Source: a virus. Taken from it: a stretch of DNA of 20,236 bases. This document shows, one piece after another, positions 2,555-17,548 of this stretch. The notes beneath the pieces are model-generated. The model had not been told where the DNA came from, ran no database searches, and saw only the letters and a list, made by a program, of their open reading frames with translations. The stretch's first letter is position 1, and each line of letters opens with the position of its first letter. Location of the stretch: the IMG/VR virus record IMGVR_UViG_3300025141_001009, positions 1 through 20,236 of that record; one strand, 5' to 3'. A program made the position numbers and the translations under genes.

Positions 2555-3211
2555 ATGAACTTTATATGTGCCACAGTTGAGCTACGACATTTGGGGGATA
2601 GCGTGCAAGCCTATGGGTTGGATTATTGCAGTGCTGACGCTGTTGTGCCCGGTAACGGCAGTGCTAGTGAGGTTCGATTCAGGCTTCTCTGCTACGAACG
2701 CCAAGGTCCTAAGCTCCAGGCCTTCCTTGATTGGAAGTCAGGCACCCGCGCCTTGATTACTGGTAACATTGTATTTAGCGATGACACAGCACAACCTTTG
2801 GATATCATTGTTACAACGATTGAGACTGCAGTACCGCAAAATATGTACTGCAATCAGGTTGTTCTTGGGAATGCGTTCTTCGGTTCAGATGAAATCAAAG
2901 AACGTAAGAACGGTCAAGTAGCCGTTAAAATTGGAACAACGTTAGACAATAGCGACGTTACAACGTGGCTATTTATGGAGACACATGAAAGCAGAAAGGA
3001 GAAACTTAATGGCAGAATTCGGAAGGGTCGCCCAATATGCGTCACTGGATATCTACGAGAATATCGTAAAGACGACAGCGACAGTCCTTACCGGGCTATC
3101 TGCGCGAATGACTTCACTACGCGGAAGGATAGAGAGCAAAGAAAGTCAGGACCGCAATCATCGGGAACTGCTTCGGGCTATACGGAGGTGGACCCGACCC
3201 CGGACTACTGA
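2555..3211 (+). CDS. ssb: Single-stranded DNA-binding protein with two OB-fold-like halves
   Basis: Probably coats single-stranded DNA at the phage replication fork. Residues about 100-188 resemble bacterial SSB: NQVVLGN start, an NGQVAVKIGT strand, TTWLFMETHES, a KGRPICVTGYL strand and a final YRAICANDF strand. The first 95 residues have a similar strand pattern (RFRLLCYER, SGTRALITGNIVF), suggesting a second OB fold. A low-complexity linker (about 189-207) leads to GYTEVDPTPDY, ending Pro-Asp-Tyr, in the place of the partner-binding tip of other SSBs. GxAxGYTEVDP also occurs inside the primase-helicase encoded downstream. The gene follows a hairpin and precedes a strong terminator, so it ends the first + strand unit. 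Confidence 0.75.
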   Translation: MNFICATVELRHLGDSVQAYGLDYCSADAVVPGNGSASEVRFRLLCYERQGPKLQAFLDWKSGTRALITGNIVFSDDTAQPLDIIVTTIETAVPQNMYCNQVVLGNAFFGSDEIKERKNGQVAVKIGTTLDNSDVTTWLFMETHESRKEKLNGRIRKGRPICVTGYLREYRKDDSDSPYRAICANDFTTRKDREQRKSGPQSSGTASGYTEVDPTPDY

Positions 3212-3261
3212 AGTTAAACGTGTAGGCCCTGGTTGCTTACGCCCTGACGATTAATAACACT

Positions 3262-3281
3262 GCCCCACTAGGGGCTTTTTT
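3262..3281 (+). terminator. Rho-independent terminator after the SSB gene
   Basis: GCCCC (3262-3266), loop ACTA, GGGGC (3271-3275), then six T. It lies 51 bases after the SSB stop and separates the RNR-thyX-ssb unit from the replication unit starting at 3341. Confidence 0.85.
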
Positions 3282-12834: not shown

Positions 12835-13172
12835 ACCAAGCAGACATTGACGCCATCAACGAGATGGCAAGTGAGGCAGGCCATCGCCTTCGTTTAGAAG
12901 AAGGTTGCCTCGGTGAATATTTCAGAGATGCAGACTTACCTTTGCTTGACGGTGAGAACACCTTTGAACGTGAAGAGTGTATGGATCCAACGATGCCTAG
13001 GTCTCAAATCTCCCTTGACCAAGAGAAAAAAGAAGCTGACGTTATCTTTGGCACACAACTACAGAATGTAGCCGACAAACTTAACGGTACTATTATTTAC
13101 CAGACCGTTGTTAACCACGACGGCACCAGTTACAAGCGTATTATTATTGAATATGCTATTAAGCATGATTAA
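12831..13172 (+). CDS. Hypothetical protein, end of the + strand replication block
   Basis: 113 aa. Acidic N-terminal half (EMASEAGHRLRLEEGCLGEY); the C-terminal half forms a likely beta-alpha-beta unit (ADKLNGTIIYQTVV, then YKRIIIEYAIKHD). It overlaps the preceding gene by four bases and its last 14 bases overlap the end of the convergent minus-strand gene. No known motif. Confidence 0.6.
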   Translation: MNQADIDAINEMASEAGHRLRLEEGCLGEYFRDADLPLLDGENTFEREECMDPTMPRSQISLDQEKKEADVIFGTQLQNVADKLNGTIIYQTVVNHDGTSYKRIIIEYAIKHD

Positions 13173-13803: not shown

Positions 13804-13837
13804 TGTTGCAACATATATCCCATTTTACAGTTACAAT
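13804..13837 (+). promoter_or_regulatory. Putative promoter of the riboswitch cassette with a 10-bp palindrome
   Basis: TGTTGCAACA (13804-13813) is a perfect palindrome containing a TTGCAA -35-like hexamer (13806-13811). TACAAT (13832-13837) is a plausible -10, though the 20-base spacer is long. Transcription from it would begin just before the aptamer at 13847. The palindrome also lies seven bases upstream of the divergent gene's start at 13797, so it could control both. Confidence 0.4.
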
Positions 13838-13846
13838 TAAAGAGTA

Positions 13847-13900
13847 CGTTCATCCCTTACAAGGGACGCAAGTAGGTTCAAGATAGGAACTGAAGGAACG
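13847..13900 (+). ncRNA. Glutamine riboswitch aptamer (Downstream-peptide / glnA RNA class)
   Basis: The aptamer is recognised by its conserved segments in order: CGTTCATCC, GGACGCAAGTAGG, and GAAGGAACG. These match my recollection of the glnA/Downstream-peptide glutamine aptamers of cyanobacteria, cyanophages and marine metagenomes. The helices are present: P1 CGTTC (13847-13851) with GAACG (13896-13900); P2 TCCCT (13853-13857) with AGGGA (13862-13866); P3 GTTC (13876-13879) with GAAC (13887-13890). It precedes a short ORF, as the class name implies. The ligand is L-glutamine from published work on the family; binding by this copy is inferred. It is likely a cis-regulator reporting host nitrogen status. 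Confidence 0.85.
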
Positions 13901-13928
13901 GGATTATCCAAACCTACCGGAGTAATCC
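13901..13928 (+). promoter_or_regulatory. Expression platform: alternative pairings around the peptide's Shine-Dalgarno
   Basis: GGATTA (13901-13906) can pair with TAATCC (13923-13928), enclosing a loop that contains GGAG (13919-13922), a good Shine-Dalgarno seven bases before ATG 13930. In the same loop AACCTAC (13911-13917) is exactly complementary to GTAGGTT (13872-13878), part of the conserved aptamer core and of P3. The two states can compete, giving a simple translational switch or pseudoknot. The pairings are visible; the direction of control is not. Confidence 0.6.
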
Positions 13929-13929
13929 A

Positions 13930-14076
13930 ATGACTACTGTACAAGTACAAGGCCTTCTGGCCGCCCGCAATAAAGAGCTTCGCACCCAACGTGAGTTCCA
14001 TGCAGCCCGACTGCGTGAACTGAACAAGCACGTGGGGACTACCTACACCTACCGTGGTGTGTCCTACACTAAATAA
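13930..14076 (+). CDS. 48-aa Arg-rich downstream peptide under the glutamine riboswitch
   Basis: An ATG seven bases after GGAG opens 48 codons to TAA 14074-14076, followed at once by a terminator, so this is a one-gene cassette. The product begins MTTVQVQGLLAARNKELRTQ and is basic, with regularly spaced Arg in a predicted helix (residues 9-33), then TYTYRGVSYTK. YRGVSY recalls the short cyanobacterial DUF4278 motif. The spaced-Arg helix recalls glutamine synthetase inactivating factors (IF7/IF17), which glutamine riboswitches control in host cyanobacteria. That resemblance is from memory and unaligned. It may act on host nitrogen assimilation, but the function is unproven. Confidence 0.75.
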   Translation: MTTVQVQGLLAARNKELRTQREFHAARLRELNKHVGTTYTYRGVSYTK

Positions 14077-14083
14077 CTTAAAC

Positions 14084-14111
14084 GCCCTGGCTATCGCCGG
14101 GGCTTTTTTTT
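14084..14111 (+). terminator. Rho-independent terminator of the riboswitch cassette
   Basis: GCCCTGGC (14084-14091), loop TATC, GCCGGGGC (14096-14103) with one T-G pair, then eight T. It closes the 48-aa peptide unit and lies just before the end of the convergent minus-strand propeller gene. The opposite strand has no T-run after the hairpin. Confidence 0.92.
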
Positions 14112-14116
14112 ATTCT

Positions 14117-15289
14117 TTACAACGCTTCCCTAATGGAATACATAAGGCTATTATCAGAACCAGCAGCTGCTGATGCTATAAACATATTGCGTCCATAAGC
14201 AACAGCCCGCCAACCACTTGTGTCTTGATCTCCTTGTGTTGCTGTCCAGTTAACGCCATCATCTGAATACATCACACGGTTGGATCCTGGGCCTGAGGAA
14301 ACCGCTACAAACTTATTGTCTCCATAAGCAACTCCATACCAGTAGTCTTCTGACGTGGCATCAGTTGCTGTCCAATTAATACCATCGTCGGAATAGCTTG
14401 CTCTATTTGTACCATCTACTGAGACAGTAACAAACCTACCATCCGAGATTGAACCAGAAGGGTTACCAAATGCAATTGCCCTACAATCAGCAGTTTCATC
14501 AGCAGCAGCAGTTTGTGTCCAACTAACACCATCACTAGAGTACATAATACGGTTAGTTCCAGACTTAGCAGTCGCTACAAACTTATCCCTACCATAGGCT
14601 ATAGATTGCCACTTATTAGCTGACACTGCTACTGAAGTCCAACTAATTCCATCATCTGAATACATAGCACGGCCTTCAGCCACTGCTACATATTTACCAT
14701 TACCGCAAGCTACACCTACCCACGCGTAATCATCTACAGGTGGAGCTAGTGTCCATGTTCTGCCATCTGGTGAAGTCATTACACGGTTAGTACCATTTCT
14801 AGCAACTGCTACAAATTGGCCACCTCCAAAAGTTAAAGCTCCCCAAGTATTATTTTGAGGTGGCTGCACTGCTATCCAGTGAGTACCATCAATTGAATAC
14901 ATCACTTCATTGTTGGCAGACGTAATTACAAATGCGCCGCCACCATAAGCTAATCCAGTCCAATCGTAGCTAGGAAGCTCTGGCCCTGCTTTCCAATTAA
15001 TTCCAGAAGTACCCGGATCACCTCCGCCCATTGAAACCCATTCCAGGCCATCCCAAATCACCATTGATCCAGTATCAACATCCCAGAAAATGTCGCCAAC
15101 CTGAGGATCTATAGGACGCTCACTTGAAGAACCCTTAGGCAATCCAAGTGTTTGACCAAAAGCTATGTCCACCACGGCGTAGTTATCGCCTGGTGTCTTC
15201 ATGAAGAACTCATCAGTCTTGACATTATAAACAAGCTCACGATAGCCTAAATTCTTTTGTACAGTATTAAGCATTTGCCTATGATTCAT
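14117..15289 (-). CDS. Seven-repeat Asp-box beta-propeller, probable tail fibre or adhesin
   Basis: 390 aa. The first 100 residues look like a phage fibre attachment module: helical MNHRQMLNTVQKNLG, then PQVGDIFWDVDTGSMVIWDG, the 'GDIWyDTdtg.lyvWdG' motif common in tail fibres. From about 112 come seven repeats of 37-48 residues with W-x-x-[VI]-A-[YF]-G, F-V-A-V and, in six, an Asp-box: SIDGTHW, SPDGRTW, SDDGISW, SSDGVSW, SDDGINW, SDDGVNW. The seventh repeat stops before its Asp-box, while an isolated GINWKAG precedes the first repeat, so the N-terminal strand probably closes the last blade. It likely binds a host surface glycan. Asp-boxes are structural and do not prove sialidase activity. 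Confidence 0.82.
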   Translation of the reverse strand: MNHRQMLNTVQKNLGYRELVYNVKTDEFFMKTPGDNYAVVDIAFGQTLGLPKGSSSERPIDPQVGDIFWDVDTGSMVIWDGLEWVSMGGGDPGTSGINWKAGPELPSYDWTGLAYGGGAFVITSANNEVMYSIDGTHWIAVQPPQNNTWGALTFGGGQFVAVARNGTNRVMTSPDGRTWTLAPPVDDYAWVGVACGNGKYVAVAEGRAMYSDDGISWTSVAVSANKWQSIAYGRDKFVATAKSGTNRIMYSSDGVSWTQTAAADETADCRAIAFGNPSGSISDGRFVTVSVDGTNRASYSDDGINWTATDATSEDYWYGVAYGDNKFVAVSSGPGSNRVMYSDDGVNWTATQGDQDTSGWRAVAYGRNMFIASAAAGSDNSLMYSIREAL

Positions 15290-16805: not shown

Positions 16806-16950
16806 TTAATTCCTCGGTCCATTCTTCAATTAATTCTTTAGCAACTTCACTATAGAATTCTTGTTGCTGATACCAGCATAGCCAACTTTCGCTGCCTTTG
16901 GAGTGATTGCATTCTGTCTCAGCTGTAGTCGATCCGGCAGAAGCTGACGA
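16750..16950 (-). other. Coding-like open frame without a start codon, between oxygenase and NblA-like genes
   Basis: An open minus-strand frame of 66 codons (TAA at 16953-16951, TAG at 16752-16750) fills the 113-base gap and overlaps both neighbours. Its product looks protein-like, not random: SESWLCWYQQQEFYSEVAKE, then LIEEWTEELNDRHINL. It has no ATG, GTG or TTG. An ATG exists in a neighbouring frame at about 16911 (MQSLQRQRK), so one base change or a +1 shift could join them. It may be a frameshifted gene, a programmed frameshift product of the oxygenase gene, a non-canonical start, or chance. Confidence 0.4.
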
Positions 16951-17548
16951 TTAAATACCTTTCACCTGAAGTAATGGGACGACCTCCATGCTTATGTGTC
17001 AAAGCACCGGGGTGAAATGCAACCTCTCCTTGTTTACCTTTGAGTAATGTCTTGTGCTCTGGAAAGAATGTACCGCCGCCTACGTAGTCTGTTGGTGCAG
17101 ATAAAGTGACCAACGAAGTGAACGTTGAAGCGTCGTGATGTAGCTTCAATGAACCTTGTATATCTGGATTGTATCTAATAATAAATGTCTCACACTTCAA
17201 TCTTTTCTTGTTGATTGTAGTGTCATACAAACTATCAACAGTTGGTACAATTATATTTTTTATAGTACTCGCGTATATCTCAGCTAAATCTTTATTGAAA
17301 TTTTCAATTAAAACATCGTTAGTTGGATAGTTCTCGTGTCTACCTTCTGTCCAATTATCGAAAGTCTTGAGTTCTGCTAGCAGGTCATTACAGAACTTGC
17401 TAGAAAACAAGGGCATAGTATAGACACCAAAGCACGGGTTGTCTGCTATTAATTTGTATTCATAGCCGCTTGACAGCAACTCAGGTGCTAGAAATAAATC
17501 ATCCCAGCCATCATCTTCGTAATTTAATACGGTATTCTTTTCTTCCAT
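16919..17548 (-). CDS. 2-oxoglutarate/Fe(II)-dependent oxygenase (prolyl/lysyl hydroxylase-like)
   Basis: 209 aa. Likely hydroxylates a protein or other substrate using Fe(II), oxygen and 2-oxoglutarate. The double-stranded beta-helix motifs are complete: KLHHDAS (135-141) gives the H137-x-D139 iron pair, GGGTFF (157-162) the turn, and HPGALTHKHGGRPITSGERY (179-198) gives distal His187 with Arg197 ten residues later for 2-oxoglutarate. ETFIIRYNPD precedes the HxD strand as in procollagen-lysine hydroxylase relatives. Such oxygenases are frequent in cyanophages. It sits 12 bases after the large Ig-like protein gene, so that virion protein, rich in Pro, is a possible substrate (inference). ATATAAATG at its start resembles a late promoter. 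Confidence 0.87.
   Translation of the reverse strand: MEEKNTVLNYEDDGWDDLFLAPELLSSGYEYKLIADNPCFGVYTMPLFSSKFCNDLLAELKTFDNWTEGRHENYPTNDVLIENFNKDLAEIYASTIKNIIVPTVDSLYDTTINKKRLKCETFIIRYNPDIQGSLKLHHDASTFTSLVTLSAPTDYVGGGTFFPEHKTLLKGKQGEVAFHPGALTHKHGGRPITSGERYLIVSFCRIDYS

Follow-up and report, generated by a model that had tools for sequence, protein, structure and literature searches.

The closest described counterpart of the locus considered here is the type 1 glutamine riboswitch of gifB/IF17 in Synechocystis, for which L-glutamine binding and changes in expression have been reported (PMC6316151), the gene being switched ON by glutamine (PMC6316151, PMC11288750). At both gifA and gifB the core promoter bears NtcA sites through which expression is repressed when nitrogen is scarce (PMC6316151). 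That Downstream-peptide motifs can be followed by short ORFs is likewise already known (PMC2864571), and two further papers describe glutamine riboswitches in phages, namely a glnA element in S-CREM1 (PMC9964418) and the elements of Melnitz and Mosig (PMC9004378).

The stretch of DNA analysed here, referred to as the window, is the whole of the 20,236-base virus record IMGVR_UViG_3300025141_001009, which is probably a fragment. Within it we confirm a stand-alone cassette composed of a glutamine riboswitch, an ORF for a peptide of 48 amino acids (aa) and a terminator. An earlier sequence-only reading had proposed one plus-strand unit of aptamer, expression platform, 48-aa ORF and terminator, and all of these parts were found:

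13832 to 13837, plus strand: -10 element TACAAT, 9 bases before P1
13845 to 13904, plus strand: type-1 glutamine riboswitch aptamer (RF01739) with stems P1, P2 and P3
13847 to 13851 (CGTTC) and 13896 to 13900 (GAACG), plus strand: aptamer stem P1
13853 to 13857 and 13862 to 13866, plus strand: aptamer stem P2
13875 to 13879 (GGTTC) and 13887 to 13891 (GAACT), plus strand: aptamer stem P3
CGCAAGUA and GAAGG: aptamer segments of the glutamine riboswitch RNA of the cassette
13901 to 13928, plus strand: expression platform hairpin, GGATTA (13901 to 13906) with TAATCC (13923 to 13928), following P1 without a gap
13919 to 13922, plus strand: Shine-Dalgarno (SD) GGAG, just inside the 3' arm of the platform hairpin
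13930 to 14076, plus strand: 48-aa peptide ORF, ATG at 13930, stop ending at 14076
14084 to 14111, plus strand: intrinsic terminator with an 8-bp GC-rich stem, a 4-nt loop and T8

The covariance-model search suggested by the earlier reading (Rfam cmscan) returned RF01739 (Glutamine) at 13845 to 13904 on the plus strand with 51.6 bits (E 6.5e-9), far above its gathering score (35), the match spanning the full model (1 to 53) with P1 to P3 present, whereas the Downstream-peptide (type 2) model RF01704 reached 26.9 bits at the same site, below its threshold of 33. The aptamer is therefore of the glnA type, so that only half of the original designation, Downstream-peptide/glnA-type, is retained, and by homology its ligand would be glutamine. 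The three stems, previously placed at 13847 to 13900, were all located and, together with the platform hairpin, covary in 14 family leaders, with 94.8% of cells paired (74.8% when shuffled) and double changes in 47 cells, where shuffles give 13.7 (none of 500 being as high), counts that are inflated by the kinship of the sequences. Sliding the partners by one column reduces pairing in these leaders to 45-56%. In four family sequences P1 changes from CGTTC/GAACG to CGTTG/CAACG, and in these four the hairpin is weak or absent; in the platform hairpin itself four of the six pairs change on both sides within the family, and 88% of cells are paired. The terminator hairpin (14084 to 14103) folds at -17.4 kcal/mol and is followed by T8 at 14104 to 14111. 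Both glutamine sensing and the stand-alone organisation are well supported.

Two close IMG/VR homologues of the peptide (L002 and L003; 85% and 79%) both have RF01739 upstream, and 15 more distant ones (L287-L301), found via the relative L010, which is itself one of them, include 13 with RF01739 above the gathering score. Substitutions between the window and L002 or L003 affect chiefly the third codon position (6/6/16 and 9/4/17, respectively; dN 0.12, dS 0.66 and 0.85), with dN of 0.12-0.15 against dS of 0.66-0.87 among the three, and this bias, with dN well below dS, identifies the 48-aa ORF as a real gene, which is under purifying selection. In L002 a second small ORF (MIPFTTKVELLIAVVLIGIPVHLSVWLFWKNFL..., membrane-like; about 3148 to 3267, plus strand) lies right behind the peptide and before the terminator, and is absent from the window. 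The 48-aa peptide is phage-specific. In GenBank phages, tblastn with the peptide and a search with the cassette DNA gave no match. Recent transfer is not supported, since no credible homologue occurs among 251 genomes of the picocyanobacterial family.

The best matches of the window DNA polymerase are in Synechococcus T7-like phages (44-47%), and a cyanobacterial host is therefore likely for this marine virus. A plus-strand block encoding ribonucleotide reductase, exonuclease, VapE-type helicase and DNA polymerase A ends at 13172, which places the cassette close to where this block meets a minus-strand block. Of the description of the cassette as sitting between minus-strand late genes, the strand holds for its two flanks (212 and 390 aa), which would be late genes only putatively, and the upstream neighbours are the plus-strand replication genes. 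The flanking genes, for which no homologues were found in IMG/VR, vary among the window, L002 and L003, and the cassette carries a promoter element and a terminator of its own, in the manner of a moron. The repetitive 390-aa neighbour (14117 to 15289, minus strand) matches DUF6242 weakly (31.9 bits, cut-off 29), and a 2OG-Fe(II) oxygenase (phrog_61, E 2.7e-20) is encoded at 16919 to 17548 on the minus strand. An ORF reading as psbA adjoins the cassette in L053, and no glutamine riboswitch match was found in the three Synechococcus T7-like isolates examined (S-TIP37, S-B28 and S-RIP1).

AlphaFold2 with 16 family members predicts for the peptide an Arg-rich helix of 31 residues (3-33) followed by a C-terminal YRG beta-hairpin (residues 38-47, strands 38-41 and 44-47), at a mean pLDDT of 85 and pTM of 0.44; M1, E22, Y41, R42, G43 and Y46 are invariant across the family. 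Nothing significant was found for the window peptide in Pfam, NCBIfam or PHROGs. Profiles were compared using HHalign on strict sets with shuffled-column nulls. The phage peptides of L031, L038 and L053 score 51.1 against the family (null maximum 17.7), and cyanomyovirus T4-GC 937 scores 27.0 against the strict family (null maximum 17.9) over 16 columns; with phrog_545 the window peptide has no direct hmmscan match, while three of seven family members do match, the best at 4e-11. The YRGVSY end had been said to recall DUF4278, a likeness that is borne out, the DUF4278 set scoring 22.2 (null maximum 15.1) over 8 aligned residues only, in the YRGVxY hairpin, with no match of the window peptide to the Pfam model (PF14105) at E up to 1. 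Host picocyanobacteria carry Arg-rich peptides (MSIITVHYLQRHREE...) behind type-1 riboswitches and YRG peptides behind type-2 riboswitches. Residues 1-32 of the family match the former start to start at 22.4 (null maximum 19.0), and both host Arg-rich groups together at 23.5 (null maximum 14.5), over 32 columns with an HHalign probability of 55-64%; none of eight other families of helical riboswitch peptides exceeds 13.9. The family hairpin matches the host YRG peptides at 19.0 (null maximum 17.6). With helix and hairpin each matching a separate host peptide, the phage peptide looks like a joining of the two, a suggestive reading of the profiles. In picocyanobacterial genomes, Arg-rich peptides of 37-39 aa (MSIITVHYLQRHREEAARRAKE... 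and MSITTARQMARQAEEARRAARQ...; L320-L326, L329; L328, L330) stand behind an NtcA box and a type-1 glutamine riboswitch, and are candidate regulators of the IF-like kind in a clade that is said to be without them.

TACAAT, TACACT, TATACT or TAGACT occurs at an about constant distance before the aptamer in relatives. Among 18 distinct CGCAAG-type leaders from cyanophages, 14 have an NtcA site GTAN8TAC, its TAC opening the -10 element; kinship among the sequences inflates this count, though their spacers differ. These phage boxes start 23-28 bases before the aptamer (2000 shuffles: mean 0.38, maximum 4). The gifB leader in a Synechocystis-like genome (L302) has an NtcA box at -25, and so do, at -19 to -25, 14 of the 19 riboswitch loci from picocyanobacteria. 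The boxes on the core promoter, 19-28 bases before the aptamer, are in:

Viral leaders: L019, L031, L038, L053, L066, L287-L289, L292, L295, L297-L301
gifB and host leaders: L302 (gifB); L314-L317, L320-L326, L328-L330

In most relatives, then, repression by NtcA and activation by glutamine appear to act together. This second layer cannot be claimed for the window, because there, as in L002 and L003, the core promoter lacks GTAN8TAC, the window reading CAT-N8-TAC where most relatives have GTA-N8-TAC; nor does a convincing -35 element precede its aptamer. Another viral leader group (L006, L013, L069, L083, L085 and others) has an NtcA-type box at -38/-39. Many riboswitch cassettes of cyanophages also share a conserved near-palindrome in their -35 region, immediately before the NtcA box: GTTCGCC(A/G)TGAAC (L019, L066, L287-L289, L297, L298; variants in L292, L294, L299, L301), possibly an operator.

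How general is this layout? IMG/VR was surveyed with a strict aptamer pattern (at least 120 stretches), and one ORF rule was applied to viral and bacterial sets, so that the counts refer to the matches listed and are not population frequencies. Among these, the next SD-led ORF is of 70 aa or less at 119 of 119 viral riboswitch sites; in bacterial genomes, again among the matches listed, it is of 70 aa or less at 48 of 168 sites and of 150 aa or more at 110. The viral peptides split into several unrelated families, and in hosts IF7-like, DUF4278 and Arg-rich peptides are encoded behind type-1 riboswitches. Type-1 aptamers, often in tandem, also occur in L125-L242 (SAR11-type, SAR116, SAR86, Porticoccaceae and others), where those of marine proteobacteria precede small peptides and ORFs reading as ammonium transporter, glutamine synthetase (GS) and glutamate synthase, unlike the restriction to cyanobacteria stated in a review (PMC6316151).

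A different arrangement is seen in cyanomyoviruses, where the ORF T4-GC 430 (53-55 aa/codons; matched in 314 phage records) is a gene enclosed by the riboswitch, lying inside a glutamine-type aptamer in all 11 examined cyanomyoviruses with phrog_545-type genes:

Order: GACGCAAGTAAGTCGCGGAACGGAG(C)CGTTCATCCC-ATG...TGGGACGCA(A/C)ACGACT(G/A)A-AGGAACGG
Carriers: L268, L270, L271, L272, L303-L309 (ACG-2014d, S-CAM8, S-SM2, Syn33, S-SSM4, S-RIM2, Sf-CH1a, S-H9-2, S-TIM5, ACG-2014j, S-SCSM2R)

The last codons of T4-GC 430 (W-D-A-N/H-D-stop) are themselves aptamer bases, and CGACT at the end of the ORF has its complement, AGTCG, before it. In Bellamy (L276) the second aptamer is intact with a UUCG loop, and the ORF is absent.

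We consider it reasonably probable that the window cassette is a viral copy of a host nitrogen-excess module, the peptide of which, at high glutamine, binds a protein of host nitrogen metabolism. The cassette would have been copied in its logic, and perhaps in parts, from picocyanobacteria; presumably host RNA polymerase would transcribe the short leader from the dedicated -10 promoter. Without glutamine the hairpin directly after P1 would hold the SD region and the peptide would not be made, while at high glutamine the aptamer would close and translation would start. During infection the peptide, with its Arg-rich helix and YRG beta-hairpin, might then bind and modulate host GS, PII or a partner, a target in nitrogen metabolism being suggested purely by the company that the peptide keeps. 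A bolder version, which we entertain only tentatively, is that of a new phage-specific class of nitrogen effector, unrelated to IF7, joining the helix and YRG hairpin that are separate in hosts, made only under nitrogen excess and inhibiting a host nitrogen protein; equally tentatively, nitrogen excess would here be read by the glutamine ON switch, supplemented by NtcA repression in most relatives.

Directly 3' of P1, a hairpin pairs the SD in 94% of the 81 distinct viral leaders; the same SD-holding hairpin follows P1 in 24 of 24 distinct host small-ORF leaders, the platform hairpins of both having a mean z of about -3.3 against mononucleotide shuffles. In the gifB/IF17 leader (L302) CTCCT directly after P1 pairs with AGGAG, a layout shared with the platform of the window, and this anatomy, together with the ON response of gifB, suggests that the cassette riboswitch is a translational ON switch. 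When the leader was folded in two states, P1 being either favoured or penalised, release of the SD on P1 closure was not predicted, so that simple secondary structure does not account for the coupling step. An OFF switch, with glutamine repressing a peptide that acts under nitrogen shortage, could draw on this lack of ON bias in accessibility modelling and on the hairpin directly after P1, which could stack on closed P1 and be stabilised by it; but the published gifB switch of equal layout is ON, and the NtcA boxes of relatives lie at a position from which NtcA would act as a repressor when nitrogen is short (PMC6316151), and we regard an OFF switch as quite unlikely.

The peptide might alternatively be a true GS inactivating factor of the IF7/IF17 family acquired from the host, as the claim that its Arg helix resembles IF7-type inhibitors would imply. 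The gifB-like regulatory anatomy and the basic, Arg-rich helix agree with this, and some cyanobacterial type-1 riboswitches do stand before IF7-like ORFs, of which one has a weak IF7A match. The resemblance nevertheless fails: the window peptide has no match to NCBIfam GS_inact_IF7A (NF052599), and HHalign scores of 9.7 (against 14 IF7-type sequences; null 95% 13.0) and 9.0 are within the shuffled null, so that, of the two profile comparisons proposed earlier, that with DUF4278 exceeds its null over its 8 residues while that with IF7 is noise. A search of solved structures with an IF7 sequence (letter for letter as in L260) gave no significant match and hence no IF7 template there. Picocyanobacteria, moreover, appear to be without full-length IF homologues (PMC6316151), and their GS may therefore not be adapted to one. 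Membership of the IF7/IF17 sequence family is thus disfavoured, and we think it very unlikely, GS inhibition by analogy being possible. Of the proposal that the phage senses host nitrogen and makes a peptide that adjusts assimilation, the glutamine sensing stands and the IF7 route falls; since the helix instead matches the picocyanobacterial Arg-rich riboswitch peptide, a role in nitrogen control stays plausible via this different relative. Rather unlikely, in our estimate, is that the switch merely times expression to host physiology or infection stage, the peptide serving takeover, transcription or exclusion. That viral riboswitch peptides form many unrelated families would fit such timing, as would the glutamine riboswitch of methylophage Melnitz, which sits with tmRNA and not with a nitrogen gene (PMC9004378); yet host relatives of both peptide modules lie under glutamine riboswitches and NtcA boxes, and the bacterial riboswitch also precedes the ammonium transporter, GS and glutamate synthase ORFs.

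Phage riboswitches have mostly been noted as isolated curiosities; here the layout of sensor and tiny peptide recurs, and marine phages appear to read the nitrogen state of the host and to respond with an effector. Picocyanobacterial counterparts gain a viral relative, and, as the peptides are short enough to synthesise, cyanophage handling of host nitrogen assimilation becomes directly testable.

A partial literature search found nothing joining "cyanophage" and "DUF4278". The S-CREM1, Melnitz and Mosig elements are likewise of marine phages and of the same aptamer family as that of the window, and the consulted parts of their descriptions (PMC9964418, PMC9004378) present no controlled-peptide family, promoter or platform anatomy. 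In cyanomyoviruses, phrog_545/T4-GC 937 has a helix and then YRG...YRG.xYxK behind glutamine-type aptamers and is linked to the window family by profile comparison via L031, L038 and L053, whereas the window peptide has one YRG unit and not two, a canonical aptamer with P3 and no direct match. The gifB/IF17 riboswitch resembles the window in aptamer class, in the SD-holding hairpin directly after P1, in the short gap to the ATG and in a YRG-bearing product; the window differs in being phage-borne, in encoding 48 aa and not 149, in lacking an IF7-like part and an NtcA box, and in the C-terminal position of its YRG hairpin. The small peptides of picocyanobacteria, of the Arg-rich MSIITVHYLQRHREE type or the YRG type (cf. 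PMM1846/DUF4278), have a type 1 or type 2 glutamine riboswitch in front, and each module of the phage peptide has among them a weak match above the null; hosts keep helix and YRG modules in separate peptides, whereas the phage peptide joins both.
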